From: Terriglobia bacterium
GTDB taxonomy: Bacteria > Acidobacteriota > Terriglobia > Bryobacterales > Bryobacteraceae
Assembly: GCA_025358575.1 (NCBI GenBank)
Contig: JANYJA010000029.1
Location: 1 to 37,895 of the forward strand
Length of the DNA: 37,895 bases
Direction of reading: 5' to 3'
Below the pieces are notes generated by a model. The model worked only from the letters and a program-made list of their open reading frames with translations, did no database searches and was not told the origin of the DNA. Shown here piece by piece: positions 19,979 through 28,898 of the stretch; the stretch's first letter is position 1; every line of letters starts with the position of its first letter. The translations under genes were made by a program, and so were the position numbers.

Positions 19979-22900
19979 ATGTCTCGGCTTCCCATATCAC
20001 GGCTTCTTTCAAATTGTCTCCGCGCCCCTTTCCGCTTGACCGCTTTGGTCTTTGTGTCCGCGACGCTTATTCCTGTCGCTCAGGCCGCTTTGAGTGTGAC
20101 GTTAACTCCGTCGCTTCCCTCTGGGCAGCCCGTGGGTACACAGGTCACCTGGAATACCACGGTAAGTGGCTCCTCTGGGTCGCCGCAATACCGCTTTGAA
20201 GTCATGCCCCCTGGGAGTGCAACCTTCAACGTGATGCGCGATTTCAGCACCACGAATCAATTCCCTTGGGCCGCCCTCGTGGAAGGCGCGTGGCAGGTTC
20301 GCGTCACGGTGACCGATGCTTCGACCAACACCGCGCAAGCGCTGCAGACTTACAATCTTTTGACTCGCATTAGTGGCGGGTTGCCCGCCGTTTCCCCGAC
20401 CCAGAATCCTTTGGTGGCACTTTACAGCGCCCCTCCATGCGCCAGCGGCGTCGTTCAAGTTCGATTCCGGATTTCTACTGGGACTTCATGGCAAAATACT
20501 CCGGTATATTCCTGCAAAAATTCGCTGAGCATCAACCTTTATGTCGCGGGAATGAGGCCAGCCACTTCGTATATCCTGCAGCAGATCAACTCCGTTGGAG
20601 GCGCCGGCCCGCAACTAACCTTTCAAACCGGCAACTTGCCCTTCACCATGCCAGCCTCCACTGTGATTACGGCACCCGACGCCAACACCAGTTCGGAAGG
20701 CGTGCTGTTCAGCTCTTTTGTCACTAACTCAGGCCCGAACCAGACCGGATCCATCGCCACGGATCTTGCCGGGAACCCCATCTGGTATTACGCGGCTTTG
20801 GCGCAAGCTTCGCAATCCCATTCCTATTTCGCGCGGCCGATTTTCGGCGGCACCGCAATCGCTATTCTCAGAAACAGCCAGAACTTCAATGGCATCTTCC
20901 GCGAGTTCGATCTGTCCGGGAACATCGTCCGCGAAACCAATGCCCCGCGGGTCTCTCAACAGTTAAAAGCTATGGGCAAGGACACCATTAACTTCTTCTC
21001 CCATGAAAGCCTGCGGCTGGCTAACGGGCATACGCTCACTCTCGGTTCCGCGGAACGCCTGTTGACTAACATCCAGGGTCCTGGAACTGTTGATGTCCTG
21101 GGTGATGTAGTACTTGATTTGGATCAAAATTTTCAGGTCGTTTGGGCGTGGAGCACATTCGATCATCTTGACCAGACCCGCAAAGCGGTACTCAATGAGA
21201 CCTGCGTGTCGAATGTAACTTGTGGTCCCTTGTACTTGGACAGTACGGCTAATGACTGGACTCATTGCAATTCGATCAACTATCTTGCGAGCGACGGCAG
21301 CATCACCATTTCATCGCGCAATCAGGACTGGGTATTCAAGATCGATTACAACAATGGCGCCGGCACCAACAACATCCTTTGGCGCATGGGCAATCAGGGC
21401 GATTTCACTATCAATTCCACCGATCCCTATCCCTGGTTCACGCACCAGCATGATTTCAATTTCGACGGAACGAACTATCACGTTTACGACAATGGAAACA
21501 CTCGTGTTGGGTTAAACGGAGGGAACAGCCGTGGCATGGTGCTCGCGGTCAACGAGGCCGGGCGCACCGTAACGCCGGTGCTGAGTCAAGACTTGGGGTA
21601 TTACGCATTCGCGTGGGGCACTTCTCAGCGCTTGGCCAACGGCAATTCCCAATTCCTCACTGGCCAGCTAACCAATGTTGTCGCCGATCAATCGATGGAA
21701 GTCACCGCGGCGGGCGTGAAGAACACGACGCTTCAATTTCAGACCAATGCTTATCGCGCCTTTCGCATGAAGGATCTTTGGACTCCGGATGACTTTGTCG
21801 CGCCCACCACGCCTTCCGGTCTCGCTGGATCGACGCTGGGTTCTACGAGCGTCGGGCTTAGCTGGAATGCTTCCAATGACAATACTGGTGTGGCCGGATA
21901 TAAGCTGTATCGCAACGGCGTGCTTATCGCCACCACAAGCGCGCTTGCATTTACCGATACCGGTCTTACCATCAACACGACTTACACCTATACGGTTTTG
22001 GCCTATGACTTTGCGGGGAATCTTTCCCCACTCTCACCCGGCGTGAATGTGCGCACCGGCCAGCTTCTGCCTCCATCAAATCTGGTCGCGACCGCCGCCA
22101 ACGTGTCTTGGCAGATTAATCTCACCTGGACGCCATCGCCCGACCCGGCCGTCATCGGATACAACATCATGAAAGGCGGGACACAGCTTGCCACCACTGG
22201 CGCCGCCAGTTACACGGACACCGGTTTGTTCGCCGCGACTACTTTCAGTTACATCGTGACGGCCTTTGACGCGAGCGGCAATACTTCAGCCCCGACCAAT
22301 ATTGCTTCGGCAACTACTATTACAGGCATTCCGTGGCGTCAGGTTACCGGACGCAACATCAAGAAAATGACGGTGATCATTCCCGATATCGCCGCTGAAG
22401 TTGGCTGGTCCACCTCGCCAACCAGTACCGTGCTCGCCGATCAGCGCCTTGCCAATGGTTACTTTGCTCTGTACACCATGAACTCGGACGGCTCTAATCA
22501 GGTTTGCGTCTCCTGCACCGCTCCCGGCGTGCCGCAGCGCAATAACGGAAACGCCGCTTGGCATCCGTCTGGGAAATACATTGTTTTCGAATCGCAGAAT
22601 CCAAATTACCCGGATGTTCCTAGTGCTTATCCGGGAGCGGGTATTAACGACGATATCTGGATCATGAACAGCGACGGAACCAACGCCAAGCAGATCACCA
22701 CGGTTGCATCCGGCAATGGCGTGGTCCACCCGCACTTCAATCACCGGGGCGATACCGTCATCTGGGCCGAAAAAATCGGGCCCGCGCAGGGTATCACGAG
22801 CACCCTTGGTCGCTGGGTGATCCGCATCGGAAGCTACAACCCCGCGTTTGCCAAGCCGGTCTTCAATATTCAGACTTACGAGCCGGTTACGCCAATCTTT

Positions 22901-23359
22901 TACGAGACATTTGGATTTTCGAATGACGATACCCAGATGATCTTTTCGGCCAACATGCTTCCGAACCAGACGGTGCCTACGATTGATGTCTTTCTCTACA
23001 ATTTCAGCACCCAAGCGCTGGTGAACCTGACCAACACAACTACTGTTTGGGACGAGCATGCGCACTTCAACCCGGTGGGCAATGGTTCGCCAATTCTATG
23101 GATGTCCTCACAGGACTTGCTACCGTTCCCGAATTTCACTAATTACATCGACGAGTACTGGTGGATGAATATTGATGGCACGCAAAAGACTCGGATGACA
23201 TATTTCAACGATCCGACGGCCCCCGAGTATATACCAAGTTACGGGGGGATCGCGCCGGGTGATGTGGCTTGGGCTCCCGATGGAACTAAGTTCCTGGGAT
23301 TAGTGGTAACTGGGAAGTATGTGAACCAGCAGGGTTCGCTGGTTCTTTTCGAGCCGTAA
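19979..23359 (+). CDS. Secreted arylsulfotransferase-like / FN3 / TolB-propeller fusion protein
   Basis: This 1126-aa protein has a signal peptide ending near 'LIPVAQAALS'. An Ig-like region (about 40-130) is followed by an arylsulfotransferase (ASST)-type propeller (about 200-600). Candidate family histidines lie in 'HESLRLANGHTL' (about 342), 'DWTHCNSINYL' (about 426) and 'WFTHQHDFNFDG' (about 486), with 'RNQDWVFKID' between them. Two fibronectin type III domains follow (about 606-692 and 695-782), each with the typical 'GYKLYRNG' or 'GYNIMKGG' strand. The C-terminal 340 residues look like a TolB/PD40 propeller ('NAAWHPSGKYIVFESQN', 'DDIWIMNSDGTNAKQIT', 'DVAWAPDGTKF'). Sulfate transfer between phenols is the ASST reaction, but activity here is unproven. 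A strong hairpin follows 11 nt after the stop. Confidence 0.85.
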   Translation: MSRLPISRLLSNCLRAPFRLTALVFVSATLIPVAQAALSVTLTPSLPSGQPVGTQVTWNTTVSGSSGSPQYRFEVMPPGSATFNVMRDFSTTNQFPWAALVEGAWQVRVTVTDASTNTAQALQTYNLLTRISGGLPAVSPTQNPLVALYSAPPCASGVVQVRFRISTGTSWQNTPVYSCKNSLSINLYVAGMRPATSYILQQINSVGGAGPQLTFQTGNLPFTMPASTVITAPDANTSSEGVLFSSFVTNSGPNQTGSIATDLAGNPIWYYAALAQASQSHSYFARPIFGGTAIAILRNSQNFNGIFREFDLSGNIVRETNAPRVSQQLKAMGKDTINFFSHESLRLANGHTLTLGSAERLLTNIQGPGTVDVLGDVVLDLDQNFQVVWAWSTFDHLDQTRKAVLNETCVSNVTCGPLYLDSTANDWTHCNSINYLASDGSITISSRNQDWVFKIDYNNGAGTNNILWRMGNQGDFTINSTDPYPWFTHQHDFNFDGTNYHVYDNGNTRVGLNGGNSRGMVLAVNEAGRTVTPVLSQDLGYYAFAWGTSQRLANGNSQFLTGQLTNVVADQSMEVTAAGVKNTTLQFQTNAYRAFRMKDLWTPDDFVAPTTPSGLAGSTLGSTSVGLSWNASNDNTGVAGYKLYRNGVLIATTSALAFTDTGLTINTTYTYTVLAYDFAGNLSPLSPGVNVRTGQLLPPSNLVATAANVSWQINLTWTPSPDPAVIGYNIMKGGTQLATTGAASYTDTGLFAATTFSYIVTAFDASGNTSAPTNIASATTITGIPWRQVTGRNIKKMTVIIPDIAAEVGWSTSPTSTVLADQRLANGYFALYTMNSDGSNQVCVSCTAPGVPQRNNGNAAWHPSGKYIVFESQNPNYPDVPSAYPGAGINDDIWIMNSDGTNAKQITTVASGNGVVHPHFNHRGDTVIWAEKIGPAQGITSTLGRWVIRIGSYNPAFAKPVFNIQTYEPVTPIFYETFGFSNDDTQMIFSANMLPNQTVPTIDVFLYNFSTQALVNLTNTTTVWDEHAHFNPVGNGSPILWMSSQDLLPFPNFTNYIDEYWWMNIDGTQKTRMTYFNDPTAPEYIPSYGGIAPGDVAWAPDGTKFLGLVVTGKYVNQQGSLVLFEP

Positions 23360-24288: not shown

Positions 24289-26625
24289 TCAATACCGCTT
24301 TTTTTTGCTTTTGCGCTCCGGCTCTATGAGCGAGAATTGAAGCTTGCGCTCCGACGGATCCACGCGATCCAGCGACACCCGCACTGCGTCTCCAATGGCG
24401 AACTCGCGGCGCGTTCGCTGACCGACAATTTTGCGGACTTTTTCCAGGTATGCGTACCGTTCGCCGGGCAGTGAATCGATGGGCACAAGTCCTTCCACGA
24501 ATAAATCCTGCAATTCCACGAACAGCCCGTATTTGGTAGTGCTGATGATCAGGCCGTCAAACTCTTCGCCGACTCGTTCGGCCATAAACTTGGCCTTCTT
24601 CCACTCCACCAGTTCACGCTCGGCTTCAGCGGCACGGCGCTCGGTTTGCGAGCACTCATCCGCGATGGATCGAAGCTCGGGTTCTTCGGCGTAAATCCAT
24701 CCTTCCATCGAGGCGCCCAGGAGCCGGTGGATCACCAGATCCGGATAGCGCCGGATGGGTGAGGTGAAGTGCGTGTAGTTTTCCGCCGCCAGCGCAAAGT
24801 GGCCGTCGTTTTCGGTGCTGTAGCGCGCCTGTTTCAGCGACCGCAACATGAGAAAGCTCAGGATGCGCTCCTCCGGCCTGCCCTGAATCTTCGCGATCAG
24901 CTTTTGATAATTGCGCGACGTTACTTTCAATTGGGCATCCGCAAACTGCATCTGGTGGCGCGATCTGCCGCCGTCGCGCCGCTTCTCCGTGTAGGTTACT
25001 TTGCGCACGGGAATCGCGCCCACGCCGAGCGAGACGCCGAAGTGCGCGGCGACTTCCTCAAATTCCATCACGCGCTTAGGGTCGGGAATTTCGTGGATTC
25101 GGTACAGCGAGGCTGGGGTTACGTTGCCCAGGTGCGCCGCGACGGCTTCGTTGGCGGCGAGCATAAATTCCTCGATGATACCGTGCGCAGCGTTGCGCGG
25201 CAGCCGCGTGACGCCCGTCATGGAGCCTTCTTCATCGAACTCGATAACGGGCTCGGGCAGGTCGAAATCGATGGAGCCGCGCTTCACCCGCTTGCGATTT
25301 AGAATGTTCGCGAACTCCTGCATCGTCTCAAAGCGCGGAACCAGTGAAGCATAACGCTCGCGCTGCGCGGGGTCGCCTTCGAGCAACAGATGCACATTGG
25401 TGTAAGTCATGCGCTCGTGGCTCCGGATGACGCCGCGGCAGAACTCTTGGGCGACCATTTCGCCCTGCCGGTCAAACTCCATCAACGCCGACATTACGAG
25501 GCGATCGGCGTGCGGCTTCAATGAGCAGATCTCGGTCGAGAGTTCGAACGGGAGCATGGGCACGGCGCGGTCGGGGAAGTAAACGCTGGTGCCGCGCAGC
25601 CGGGCTTCGACGTCAATCGGCGTGCCGGGCTTCACGTAGTGGCTAACGTCAGCGATGTGGACGTGCAGTGCATAATGCCCGTTATCGAGGCGATCGACCC
25701 AAACGGCGTCATCGAAATCGCGAGCGGTTTCGCCGTCGATGGTGACGATGGGCATGTCGCGAAAATCGCGCCGGCCAGTTAGCTCCCACGCCGCGATCAC
25801 CGACGGAACGCTTTGCGCCTGTTCGGCGGCTTCAGGGGGAAAATGGTTTGGCAGGTGATGCTTGCGGATGATGATTTCGACATCGATGCCGAAGTCGCCC
25901 GGCTTACCGAGGATCTCGACGATACGGCCGACGGGCTTCTCCGCGCGTCGCGGATGACCGCCGGTTCCGTATTCCAGCAGCTCGACATTGACGATCAATC
26001 CGTTCAATTCGGCTGCGTCGGCGACCGCCAGCGGCTTGGGGCCAATGCGGTCGATTTGAGCGGAGGGCAGCGGAATCGCCATGTCTTCGGGGATTTCAAT
26101 CCATTCGCGCAGGCGCTCGTCCTGGGGGATCACGAAATGGCCGCGCTGCGTGATGCGAAACTCACCGACAACCGTCGGATGGGCGCGCTTCAGAATCTTA
26201 AGAACTTCGCCGTCGGCTTTCCCGTCGCGTTCGATGCGGGCGATCCGGATGATGGCGCGATCTCCGTGCATCGCGCCGCCGGTGCCATCGACTGGCAGAT
26301 AGATATCGCCGGCGAGGCCTTCCACGGGCCGGTCTGGAATGAGAAATCCGTAGCCATCCCGGTGCATGCTAATGCGCCCCACCGCGAGCTCACGGCTGCG
26401 GGCCGTGGCCACGAAATGGCCGCCACGCATCTCGACGAGATCGCCGCGGGTCACGAGTCGCTCCAGCGTGGCCTCAATGTTGTCGCGCTCGCCGCCCTTC
26501 GCGCCGAACTCGCGGGTGAGTTGCTTGAAGTTGGCTTTGGCGTGCGGCAGGCGAGTGATGTAAGCCAGAAGCGCGGATTCCGTCATCCCTGGTTTAGGTT
26601 CCCGTTGCTTGCCCTGTTCCTTCAT
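24289..26625 (-). CDS. rnr: Ribonuclease R (3'-5' exoribonuclease)
   Basis: The start at ATG 26625, with AAGGA 4 nt upstream, gives 778 aa, close to the usual 750-810. The open frame extends to 26961, but that extra 112 residues is antisense to the selenoprotein gene and lacks family features. Domains in order are a winged-helix start ('[21 protein letters not shown]'), cold-shock OB folds ('[16 protein letters not shown]', '[20 protein letters not shown]'), the RNB catalytic domain with the acidic motif '[17 protein letters not shown]', '[12 protein letters not shown]' and '[20 protein letters not shown]', and the S1 domain ('[17 protein letters not shown]') with a basic tail 'KSKKKRY'. It degrades structured RNA processively in mRNA and rRNA turnover. 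It is divergent from the selenoprotein with 27 bp between starts. Confidence 0.95.
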
Positions 26626-26652
26626 GAAGTCCTTCCAGATTACACTGAGACT

Positions 26653-27231
26653 ATGAAGAGATTGGCGGTATCGCTGCTTGCGCTTACCAGTTTGTTCCCG
26701 GCATTCGGGACCTCGGCCACGGTGCCCCGCAAGGCGGCCGAGTTCGTGACCGAAATGCCCGGAAGTACGCCGACGCTCCTCAGCCACTACCGCGGCAAGA
26801 TTGTGGTGATGGCGTTCATGTTCACCACTTGACCGCACTGCCAACACATCGCTCAGGTTCTGAGCGGCATACAGAAAGATTATGAAGCGCGCGGCGTGCA
26901 GATTCTGGGCACGTCGTTCAATGACGGCGCGGCGGGACTTGTCGGCGCGTTTAATGCGCAATATGTAAAGGGTTTTCCTTCGGGGACGGCGGAACGCGGC
27001 GCGGTGCTTGAATTTCTAGAGCATTCGGTGATGGCGCCGTTTTACGTGCCCATCATCGCGATTGTCGATCGTAAGGGCATGGTTCGAGAACAGCATATCG
27101 GAGACGATGATTTTCTGCGCGACCCGGAAAAGAACATTCGCGAGCGATTGGATGCGCTCGCGAAAGAGCAACCCATGCACACGGCGGCGGCGCGCTCCAC
27201 CATTCATCGCGCAGCGGCTAAAAAGAAGTGA
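26653..27231 (+). CDS. Thioredoxin-fold selenoprotein (UPHC motif, in-frame TGA at 26830-26832)
   Basis: From ATG 26653 the frame encodes a signal peptide ('MKRLAVSLLALTSLFPAFGT') and a TlpA/AhpC-like thioredoxin fold ('TLLSHYRGKIVVMAFMFTT'). It then meets TGA at codon 60 and continues with 'PHCQHIAQVLSGIQKDYEAR', 'GVQILGTSFND' and 'FYVPIIAIVDRKGMVREQHI' to TGA 27229-27231 (192 residues with Sec). The TGA occupies the first Cys position of a CPHC redox motif, giving U-P-H-C. The downstream 132 codons are intact and family-like. A SECIS-like hairpin begins 17 nt after the TGA. The likely role is periplasmic thiol-disulfide or peroxide redox. The alternative is a single-base nonsense mutation of a Cys codon. 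It overlaps the FecR gene start (GTGA), and no sel gene lies in the window. Confidence 0.82.
26850..26866 (+). promoter_or_regulatory. Putative bacterial SECIS hairpin
   Basis: CGCTCAG-GTT-CTGAGCG forms a perfect 7-bp stem with a 3-nt loop. The loop begins 24 nt after the TGA at 26830-26832 and its first base is G. Known bacterial SECIS elements are coding-region stem-loops at roughly this distance with a G at the start of the apical loop, which SelB recognises. The match supports selenocysteine insertion, but no bulged U like that of E. coli fdhF is evident. Confidence 0.7.
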
Positions 27232-28898
27232 GTCTTATGCAACGCGAAGGCACCTTCGGTCGTCACCTTTTCAGCGTGACCCGAACGTGCGTTTGCTTGT
27301 TGCCTCTGTGTCTGGCGCTTCCCGCGTCAATGCTGGCGGGGTCCACGCGATTCGCCCGAATTGCGGAGCTTGAGGGCAAAGCGGAGCTTCAACTGCGCGC
27401 TTCCGATGCATGGCAGCCCGCGGTTCGCAATATGTCGGCGCTTGAATCCAGTTGGCTGCGAACTTCCGATGCGGGGCGACTGGAAATTGAGTTCGATGAG
27501 GGCAGCGCGTTGCGTCTGGTGGGCGATTCGCAGGCCGAGATTTCGGATTACTCGCGCCTCTCGACGGGCCAGCGCGTGACATTGCTTTCTTTAGACCACG
27601 GCCTGGCCTACTTTACCGGCGAGCCGCATCAGAACGATTCGCTGAGCCTCGCGCTTCCGGGTTTGCAGGCGACTCTGCGGCGCGGTTCGCGCGTGCGTCT
27701 CGAAGCGAACCCGCAGTTCAGTTTCATCGCCGTGATCGAGGGCGCGGTTCGCGTGTCCACACCGGCTACTGAATTGGACTTGCGCGAAGGCCAGGTTATG
27801 CGCGTCGATCCCAATGCATCGGGCCGTTTTTCGTTGTTCCGTGAGATTCCTGAAATGCCCGCCGACTGGTGGAGTGAAGATCGCGATAAAGCCGCGGCTT
27901 CCACCGCATCCGCCAAATATTTAAACGGAGCGGTCTACGGGGCGGTGGATCTGGATCGCAATGGCGTTTGGATTTCCGGTTCGGAATCGGGCCCCGTGTG
28001 GAAGCCGAAGGGCGTTGGGGACAACTGGGTTCCATTCCGCGACGGCCGCTGGCGGTGGTATGACGAAGCCGGCTACACCTGGATTAGCGCGGAGCCGTGG
28101 GGCTGGGCACCGTACCACTACGGTCGCTGGATTCAAAATTCGGCGCTCGGATGGGTGTGGGCTCCGGGGACGAATGCCATTTTTAAACCGGGTGAAGTTT
28201 ACTGGATGCGCGGAACGAATCTGGCGGGATGGGGACCGCTGGCGCCGGGCGAAACGTGGACCGGCAACGGCACTCCGCTTCAATACGCCGCTTTGAATTC
28301 GACTTTCGGGAAGTTCAGCATCGGGATGCGGGAGATTGAGCCGTCCGTCGATCTGATTCGCGCCCGTGACGTGCTCACCGCGGCTTCCTTCACCGCCGCC
28401 CTGCCCTCTCCGCCATTCGTCGCGGCACGCCTGGATGCGATTCGGCCCGCTTTGCGCGCGGGCAGCACTCACGTGGTGACCCCGGTCGTGGCTGGAGATC
28501 AATTCGATGCGCCATCGCGCGAGGCGATTAGCCGCGCGGCTTCGCGGGCTGCTTCCGACGCGGCAACTCAAGCGGTGACTCAAATAGTCGAGCCGCCCCT
28601 GCCCGCCGTGCCGCCCGTTCCAAATTTGCCGGCATCGCTTGATGGCAACGGCTATAACGTGGCCCCCGAACCTGTCGAGATCTTTTATCCGGTTCCTATC
28701 TATACCGGGATCGTTGTGATAAACCCTCCGGAGCATCGGCACTTTAGGGACCCAGCGCCTCCTGCTAAACCTCCCGACAAGCCCCCCGTTGAGGTGGTGC
28801 CTCCCATTCACCGCGTCACTCCGGGCGATGGCGGGCCGGTTCACAATGGCATTGTTGCCAGTCATCCGCGCGATGATCACTTGCCTAAAGATAAATGA
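27228..28898 (+). CDS. Exported FecR-domain protein with Trp-rich (DUF6600-like) repeats
   Basis: The frame starts at GTG 27228 (GTGA overlap with the selenoprotein stop) or ATG 27237, giving 553-556 aa. After a signal-like hydrophobic stretch ('CLLPLCLALPASMLAG') comes a FecR-type domain (about 40-200: 'WLRTSDAGRLEIEFDEGSAL', 'LDHGLAYFTG', 'FIAVIEGAVRVSTPATELDL'). About residues 240-345 hold aromatic-rich repeats ('WVPFRDGRWRWYDEAGYTWI', 'PWGWAPYHYGRWI', 'LGWVWAPG', 'VYWMRG'). The C-terminal 200 residues are Ala- then Pro-rich. FecR domains are periplasmic sensor or structural modules, but no sigma/anti-sigma partner lies nearby. Its TGA overlaps the ATG of the next gene by 4 nt, so the three genes are coupled. 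Confidence 0.85.
   Translation: MSLMQREGTFGRHLFSVTRTCVCLLPLCLALPASMLAGSTRFARIAELEGKAELQLRASDAWQPAVRNMSALESSWLRTSDAGRLEIEFDEGSALRLVGDSQAEISDYSRLSTGQRVTLLSLDHGLAYFTGEPHQNDSLSLALPGLQATLRRGSRVRLEANPQFSFIAVIEGAVRVSTPATELDLREGQVMRVDPNASGRFSLFREIPEMPADWWSEDRDKAAASTASAKYLNGAVYGAVDLDRNGVWISGSESGPVWKPKGVGDNWVPFRDGRWRWYDEAGYTWISAEPWGWAPYHYGRWIQNSALGWVWAPGTNAIFKPGEVYWMRGTNLAGWGPLAPGETWTGNGTPLQYAALNSTFGKFSIGMREIEPSVDLIRARDVLTAASFTAALPSPPFVAARLDAIRPALRAGSTHVVTPVVAGDQFDAPSREAISRAASRAASDAATQAVTQIVEPPLPAVPPVPNLPASLDGNGYNVAPEPVEIFYPVPIYTGIVVINPPEHRHFRDPAPPAKPPDKPPVEVVPPIHRVTPGDGGPVHNGIVASHPRDDHLPKDK

Follow-up and report, generated by a model that had tools for sequence, protein, structure and literature searches.

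The gene and its in-frame TGA

The window analysed here, a stretch of 37,895 nucleotides from a soil bacterium of the family Bryobacteraceae (Acidobacteriota), carries on its forward strand (26653..27231) a gene which the sequence, its homologs and a structural model lead us to read as a selenoprotein of 192 aa with a ResA/TlpA-like thioredoxin fold and selenocysteine (Sec) as residue 60. The frame is open from 26653 to 27228 except for codon 60, a TGA at 26830..26832 (+), and ends with the stop TGA at 27229-27231. Around codon 60 the translation reads FMFTT-U-PHCQHIAQVLSG. According to the initial annotation, this TGA takes the place of the first Cys in a CPHC motif and is followed by C and by 132 intact codons, and the sequence bears this out. 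As it also noted, mechanical ORF calling splits the gene at the TGA, leaving the fragments 25813-26832 and 26896-27231. Sequence and alignment place the resolving Cys of the UPHC motif, Cys63 (TGC), at 26839..26841 (+), while Pro133 (27049..27051, +), preceded by Val, occupies an invariant column and is presumably the cis-Pro of the thioredoxin fold. The N-terminus, read by eye, resembles a signal peptide, MKRLAVSLLALTSLFPAFGTSA (26653..26718, +; residues 1-20 have low pLDDT in the model), and the protein is probably exported. Many relatives with the TGA begin with a twin-arginine-like signal (e.g. MTRRMFGALL, LTRRKLIAAAGG; L046-L048, L050, L058, L080, L111, L115 and L119), which could mean export by the Tat route after folding, whereas the window protein has only KR at its N-terminus. 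The divergent neighbor, an RNase R with RNB, CSD2 and S1 domains (24289..26625, -), lies outside the system, and so does, as far as tested, the downstream gene for a FecR/DUF6600 protein (27228..28898, +).

A search of 151 related genomes with the window protein gave a large family. Among 95 aligned matches, some of them duplicate copies of a gene, the TGA column holds TGA in 31, TGC in 44 and TGT in 20, and never another stop, so that Cys stands in this column in homologs. Other apparent in-frame stops (TAG/TAA/TGA) in relatives were checked locus by locus among those fetched, and of these only TGA lies at the Sec column. The pattern ACNTGACCNCAYTGYCAR, which takes no account of the hairpin described below, had 16 matches in 14 of 237 genomes of the family and none in the reversed control. 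Thirteen of these are real in-frame homologs; the others (L052, L057 and L061) are chance matches with an upstream stop directly before the motif. A scan of public-genome contigs that did include the hairpin returned 15 matches in Acidobacteria and two in Photorhabdus, the latter taken as chance as each sits inside a long open coding frame, which in L073 looks MnmG-like by eye. A covariance model of UGA and SECIS added further TGA members, with UTHC in G009, G198 and G197 and with USHC and an AGU loop in G069, G241 and G242. At least 20 of the 237 genomes of the same family carry the TGA form, while in a phylum sample of 396 genomes the fixed pattern was found nowhere except in the window's own genome.

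The codon could still be a true stop, through a sequencing error, in a pseudogene or at the end of a truncated product, and standard gene callers do end the gene there. However, some 20 genomes of a single family have the TGA, as do independent public assemblies, which speaks against a read error; no other stop occupies the column, and the stem of the hairpin covaries. The sequence 3' of the TGA is also under purifying selection, with dN far below dS and dN/dS of approximately 0.05-0.26 in seven pairs (e.g. about 0.12 for L046/L047, 0.21 for L053/L060, 0.18 for L054/L055 and 0.08 for L119/L120). We therefore regard a true stop as extremely improbable.

A covarying SECIS hairpin and the decoding machinery

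The bacterial SECIS hairpin lies at 26850..26866 (+), 18-34 nt 3' of the TGA, with the stem 26850-26856 / 26860-26866 and the loop GUU at 26857-26859. It is the perfect 7-bp hairpin of the initial annotation, CGCTCAG-GTT-CTGAGCG, whose G-first loop starts 24 nt past the TGA, and it can alternatively fold into a 6-bp stem with the 5-nt loop GGUUC. We compared it with the published bSECIS constraints listed in Fig. 2 of PMC13188914, namely an apical loop of 3-9 nt on an upper stem of 4-16 bp (here 3 nt on 7 bp, or 5 nt on 6 bp), a G within the first two loop positions, usually G[G|U] (here GUU or GGUUC), a spacing of 16-37 nt from UGA to loop (here 24 nt) and a minimum free energy of at most -7.5 kcal/mol (here -11.1 kcal/mol). 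This folding energy is unremarkable against shuffled sequences (z -0.86) and was not used as evidence, and taken alone the hairpin could be due to chance. Rfam has no match at the locus even at E 5.

That doubt is removed by the comparative evidence, that is by the TGA/TGC/TGT column, by the complete pairing in TGA genes and by changes on both sides of the stem. Six pairs were scored in each of 13 TGA genes, gathered without reference to the stem, and all 78 of 78 are formed, against 50.3±3.4 (maximum 61; 0 of 3000 reach the observed value) when the same peptides are recoded at random with synonymous codons. Three of the six pairs have changed on both sides (CG/GC/UA, GC/AU and UA/CG), and the observed covariation score was reached by none of 500 shuffles. 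The stems of 62 Cys homologs pair no better than shuffled ones do (159 of 372 pairs, shuffles 162±7). TGA relatives have thus preserved the hairpin through compensatory changes, and Cys relatives have not preserved it. The loop is GGT in 16 of 16 TGA sequences, three of which come only from a pattern that itself required GGT, and a variant AGU loop occurs in the clade with the USHC motif.

The host genome (G000; 4.77 Mb, 95.6% complete) was searched for selA, selC, selD and the C-terminal domain of SelB, and all are present: selA with 483 bits, selD with 364 bits, a tRNA-Sec with the anticodon UCA (TCA in DNA) and the SelB-specific winged-helix domain. SelB is known here from a C-terminal fragment of 98 aa alone, its frame being cut by the contig end. 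It occurs in 190 of 237 genomes of the family and discriminates little; none was seen in one genome with the TGA form, G201, which is 87% complete. The selD of the host (contig C196) is itself a Sec gene, with an in-frame TGA in AGUASKLSPK (L043:1531-1533) followed by GTCCAAA-GGT-TTTGGAC, a hairpin with a GGU loop (GTCCAAAGGTTTTGGAC) of the same kind as in the window, whose folding energy is likewise not significant against shuffles. This second TGA and its hairpin serve as an internal positive control for Sec decoding in this genome.

Since homologs have Cys in the column, readthrough or codon reassignment could in principle insert Cys (or Trp) at the UGA. We consider this, too, very improbable, because the bSECIS-type hairpin is restricted to TGA members and would not be needed for a general reassignment, and because the Sec machinery, including tRNA-Sec(UCA), is present. 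Computation on the genomes directly shows the open frame, the alignment of Sec with Cys, the covariation of the SECIS stem, the Sec decoding genes and the purifying selection 3' of the UGA. With Sec genes present, the hairpin kept in TGA relatives and the TGA recurrent, none of the findings that would have spoken against a selenoprotein was made, and the TGA at 26830-26832 is almost certainly a selenocysteine codon that the cell would decode as such.

Fold and probable role

With Cys placed at residue 60, the protein matches AhpC-TSA best among Pfam models (E 2.5e-8), and it matches Redoxin as well. The AlphaFold2 model (pLDDT 88, pTM 0.80) has its best structural matches among ResA and DsbE-type proteins, with which the sequence profile agrees; for ResA of Bacillus (1st9, 3c71) Foldseek gives E of approximately 1e-11 and a TM-score by target of approximately 0.8. 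In this predicted structure Sec60 opens the first long helix and Cys63 follows one turn further. The thioredoxin fold of the initial annotation consequently stands as a type of fold, while the protein is not a thioredoxin proper, its branch by profile and structure being ResA/TlpA/DsbE. It resembles Bacillus ResA (the structure 3c71 is a CPHC variant), whose CxxC is extracytoplasmic, in fold, and differs from it in having Sec for Cys, a PH dipeptide and Ile66 in place of Glu80. We did not file it as ResA, peroxiredoxin or DsbA, because Glu80, the peroxiredoxin motif and the DsbA domain are all absent. Its score with the ResA model is 33 bits against a cut-off of 170, and the place of ResA's Glu80, six residues past the first Cys, is taken by Ile66; MAFMFTTU lacks both the P at -7 and the T/S at -3 of PxxxT/SxxC(U); and there is neither a PF01323 match nor a helical insertion, the model having a plain ResA-like fold.

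The AhpC-TSA match, together with the fact that many Sec enzymes with this domain are peroxidases, could be attributed to a peroxiredoxin- or GPx-like enzyme which scavenges peroxide. This is rather improbable, as the protein lacks PxxxTxxC (having Met53 and Phe57 instead of its P and T), UxxC is a motif of thiol-disulfide exchange and the nearest structures are ResA and DsbE. We prefer to see the protein as an exported, ResA/TlpA-like Sec60 oxidoreductase whose UGA is decoded by means of the hairpin at 26850-26866, a reading to which we assign a probability of about 0.9. SelB with Sec-tRNA-Sec, recruited by this hairpin, would read the UGA as Sec; after export, Sec60 of U60-P-H-C63 would attack disulfides of the substrate and Cys63 would resolve the selenenylsulfide. 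Reducing equivalents would most likely be returned by DsbD.

The host genome does encode a DsbD-like protein of full length whose C-terminal part is thioredoxin-like; DsbB and VKOR were sought in this genome (95.6% complete) and not found. On this account a thiol-disulfide reductase or isomerase of the periplasm, fed by DsbD, is our best guess for the role, and one we hold only slightly more probable than not, the direction of electron flow, the substrate and the export all being judged from sequence. No conserved operon that would point to a substrate was found around the homologs. The same protein could work in the opposite direction, as a DsbA-like oxidase in which the center is made oxidising by its dipeptide, of the CPHC type, and by the Val that precedes the presumed cis-Pro, and the selenenylsulfide is donated to exported proteins during their folding. 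The P-H dipeptide is that of DsbA, and a ResA variant with CPHC has been solved as 'DsbA-like' (3c71). In the window, an arylsulfotransferase-like gene (PF05935, with an fn3 match) also lies at 19979-23359 (+), approximately 3.3 kb upstream of the Sec gene, and arylsulfotransferases are Dsb-dependent in E. coli. Nevertheless we hold an oxidase to be unlikely, given the presence of DsbD, the failure to find DsbB or VKOR in this nearly complete genome and the lack of both a DsbA-type fold and a Pfam DSBA match.

A lineage-specific subfamily with Sec and Cys forms

Catalogues have listed selenoproteins with UxxC and a domain of the AhpC/TSA or TlpA-like type since 2005-2006 (PMC1088965, PMC1794560, PMC13188914). 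The window protein shares with the Prx-like thiol:disulfide oxidoreductases (PF00578, UxxC/UxxU; PMC13188914 Table 1, PMC1088965) an AhpC/TSA-type thioredoxin fold, UxxC and a bSECIS just 3' of the UGA, while its subfamily appears to differ from them, whose Geobacter representative is WP_010940744.1, in an apparent signal peptide and in UPHC (also USHC and UTHC). With the thiol-disulfide isomerase-like proteins (cd02966, UxxC), the UGC-containing TlpA-family selenoproteins (PMC13188914) and the NCBIfam families WAxxUGC_long and redoxin_TUGYCR it shares a TlpA/ResA-like fold and an active-site Sec; the UGC and TUGYCR families, however, have other Sec motifs, and their NCBIfam scores are 13-17 bits against cut-offs of 100-300. 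No NCBIfam model (June 2026) reaches its cut-off on the four members scanned, nor did we find a description of the UPHC subfamily in the open-access literature on selenoproteins of Bryobacter, Solibacter and Acidobacteriota. In the genomes searched, the UPHC/USHC/UTHC subfamily is confined to the Bryobacteraceae. We conclude that the window protein belongs to a new, lineage-specific subfamily within a known class of bacterial selenoproteins. The USHC clade (L119, L120 and L121, from G241, G069 and G242), with the AGU loop of its SECIS (GGCTCAAGTYTTGAGCC), is divergent, being approximately 32% identical to the window protein and above the cut-off of no NCBIfam model.

Sec and Cys forms can occur side by side. 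The host genome itself encodes a Cys paralog with CAHC, 40% identical to the window protein (L079, contig C155). It is common for these TlpA-like genes to be arranged in tandem, two or three together (L016/L049, L024, L026, L033, L037 and L095), and in G074 one of the tandem copies has Cys (TGT) and the next Sec (TGA). In a quick tree, built without the active-site and SECIS columns, the two forms are intermixed, and parsimony requires at least 8 changes, three of them forced by well-supported branches; few columns were available and the count is soft. A Cys (TGC) homolog in G283 (L118 at 1501) has all six pairs of the stem, with the loop GCU instead of GGU, and this looks like a relic left after a change from Sec to Cys. 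In a Cys homolog of G062 four of the six pairs are left.

The single type of SECIS throughout and the relic hairpins in Cys genes favor an old Sec gene with repeated changes from Sec to Cys. For the exported Sec/Cys family of the Bryobacteraceae (UPHC, UTHC and USHC), an ancestral Sec gene with one SECIS type, several conversions to Cys and relic hairpins is accordingly a history for which we see roughly even odds. We found little on selenoproteins of Acidobacteriota in the literature: four proteins in three families in the survey of 2006 (PMC1794560) and, in a test set of 2025, one acidobacterial genome with three selenoprotein genes (PMC12013277). Standard annotation will split Sec genes of this kind. 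Because one bacterial family contains orthologs with Sec and orthologs with Cys, together with SECIS hairpins that appear to be decaying, the exchange of Sec for Cys is directly testable here; if the history outlined above is true, the family would provide a natural series in which to test the advantage that Sec gives a thiol-disulfide enzyme outside the cytoplasm.
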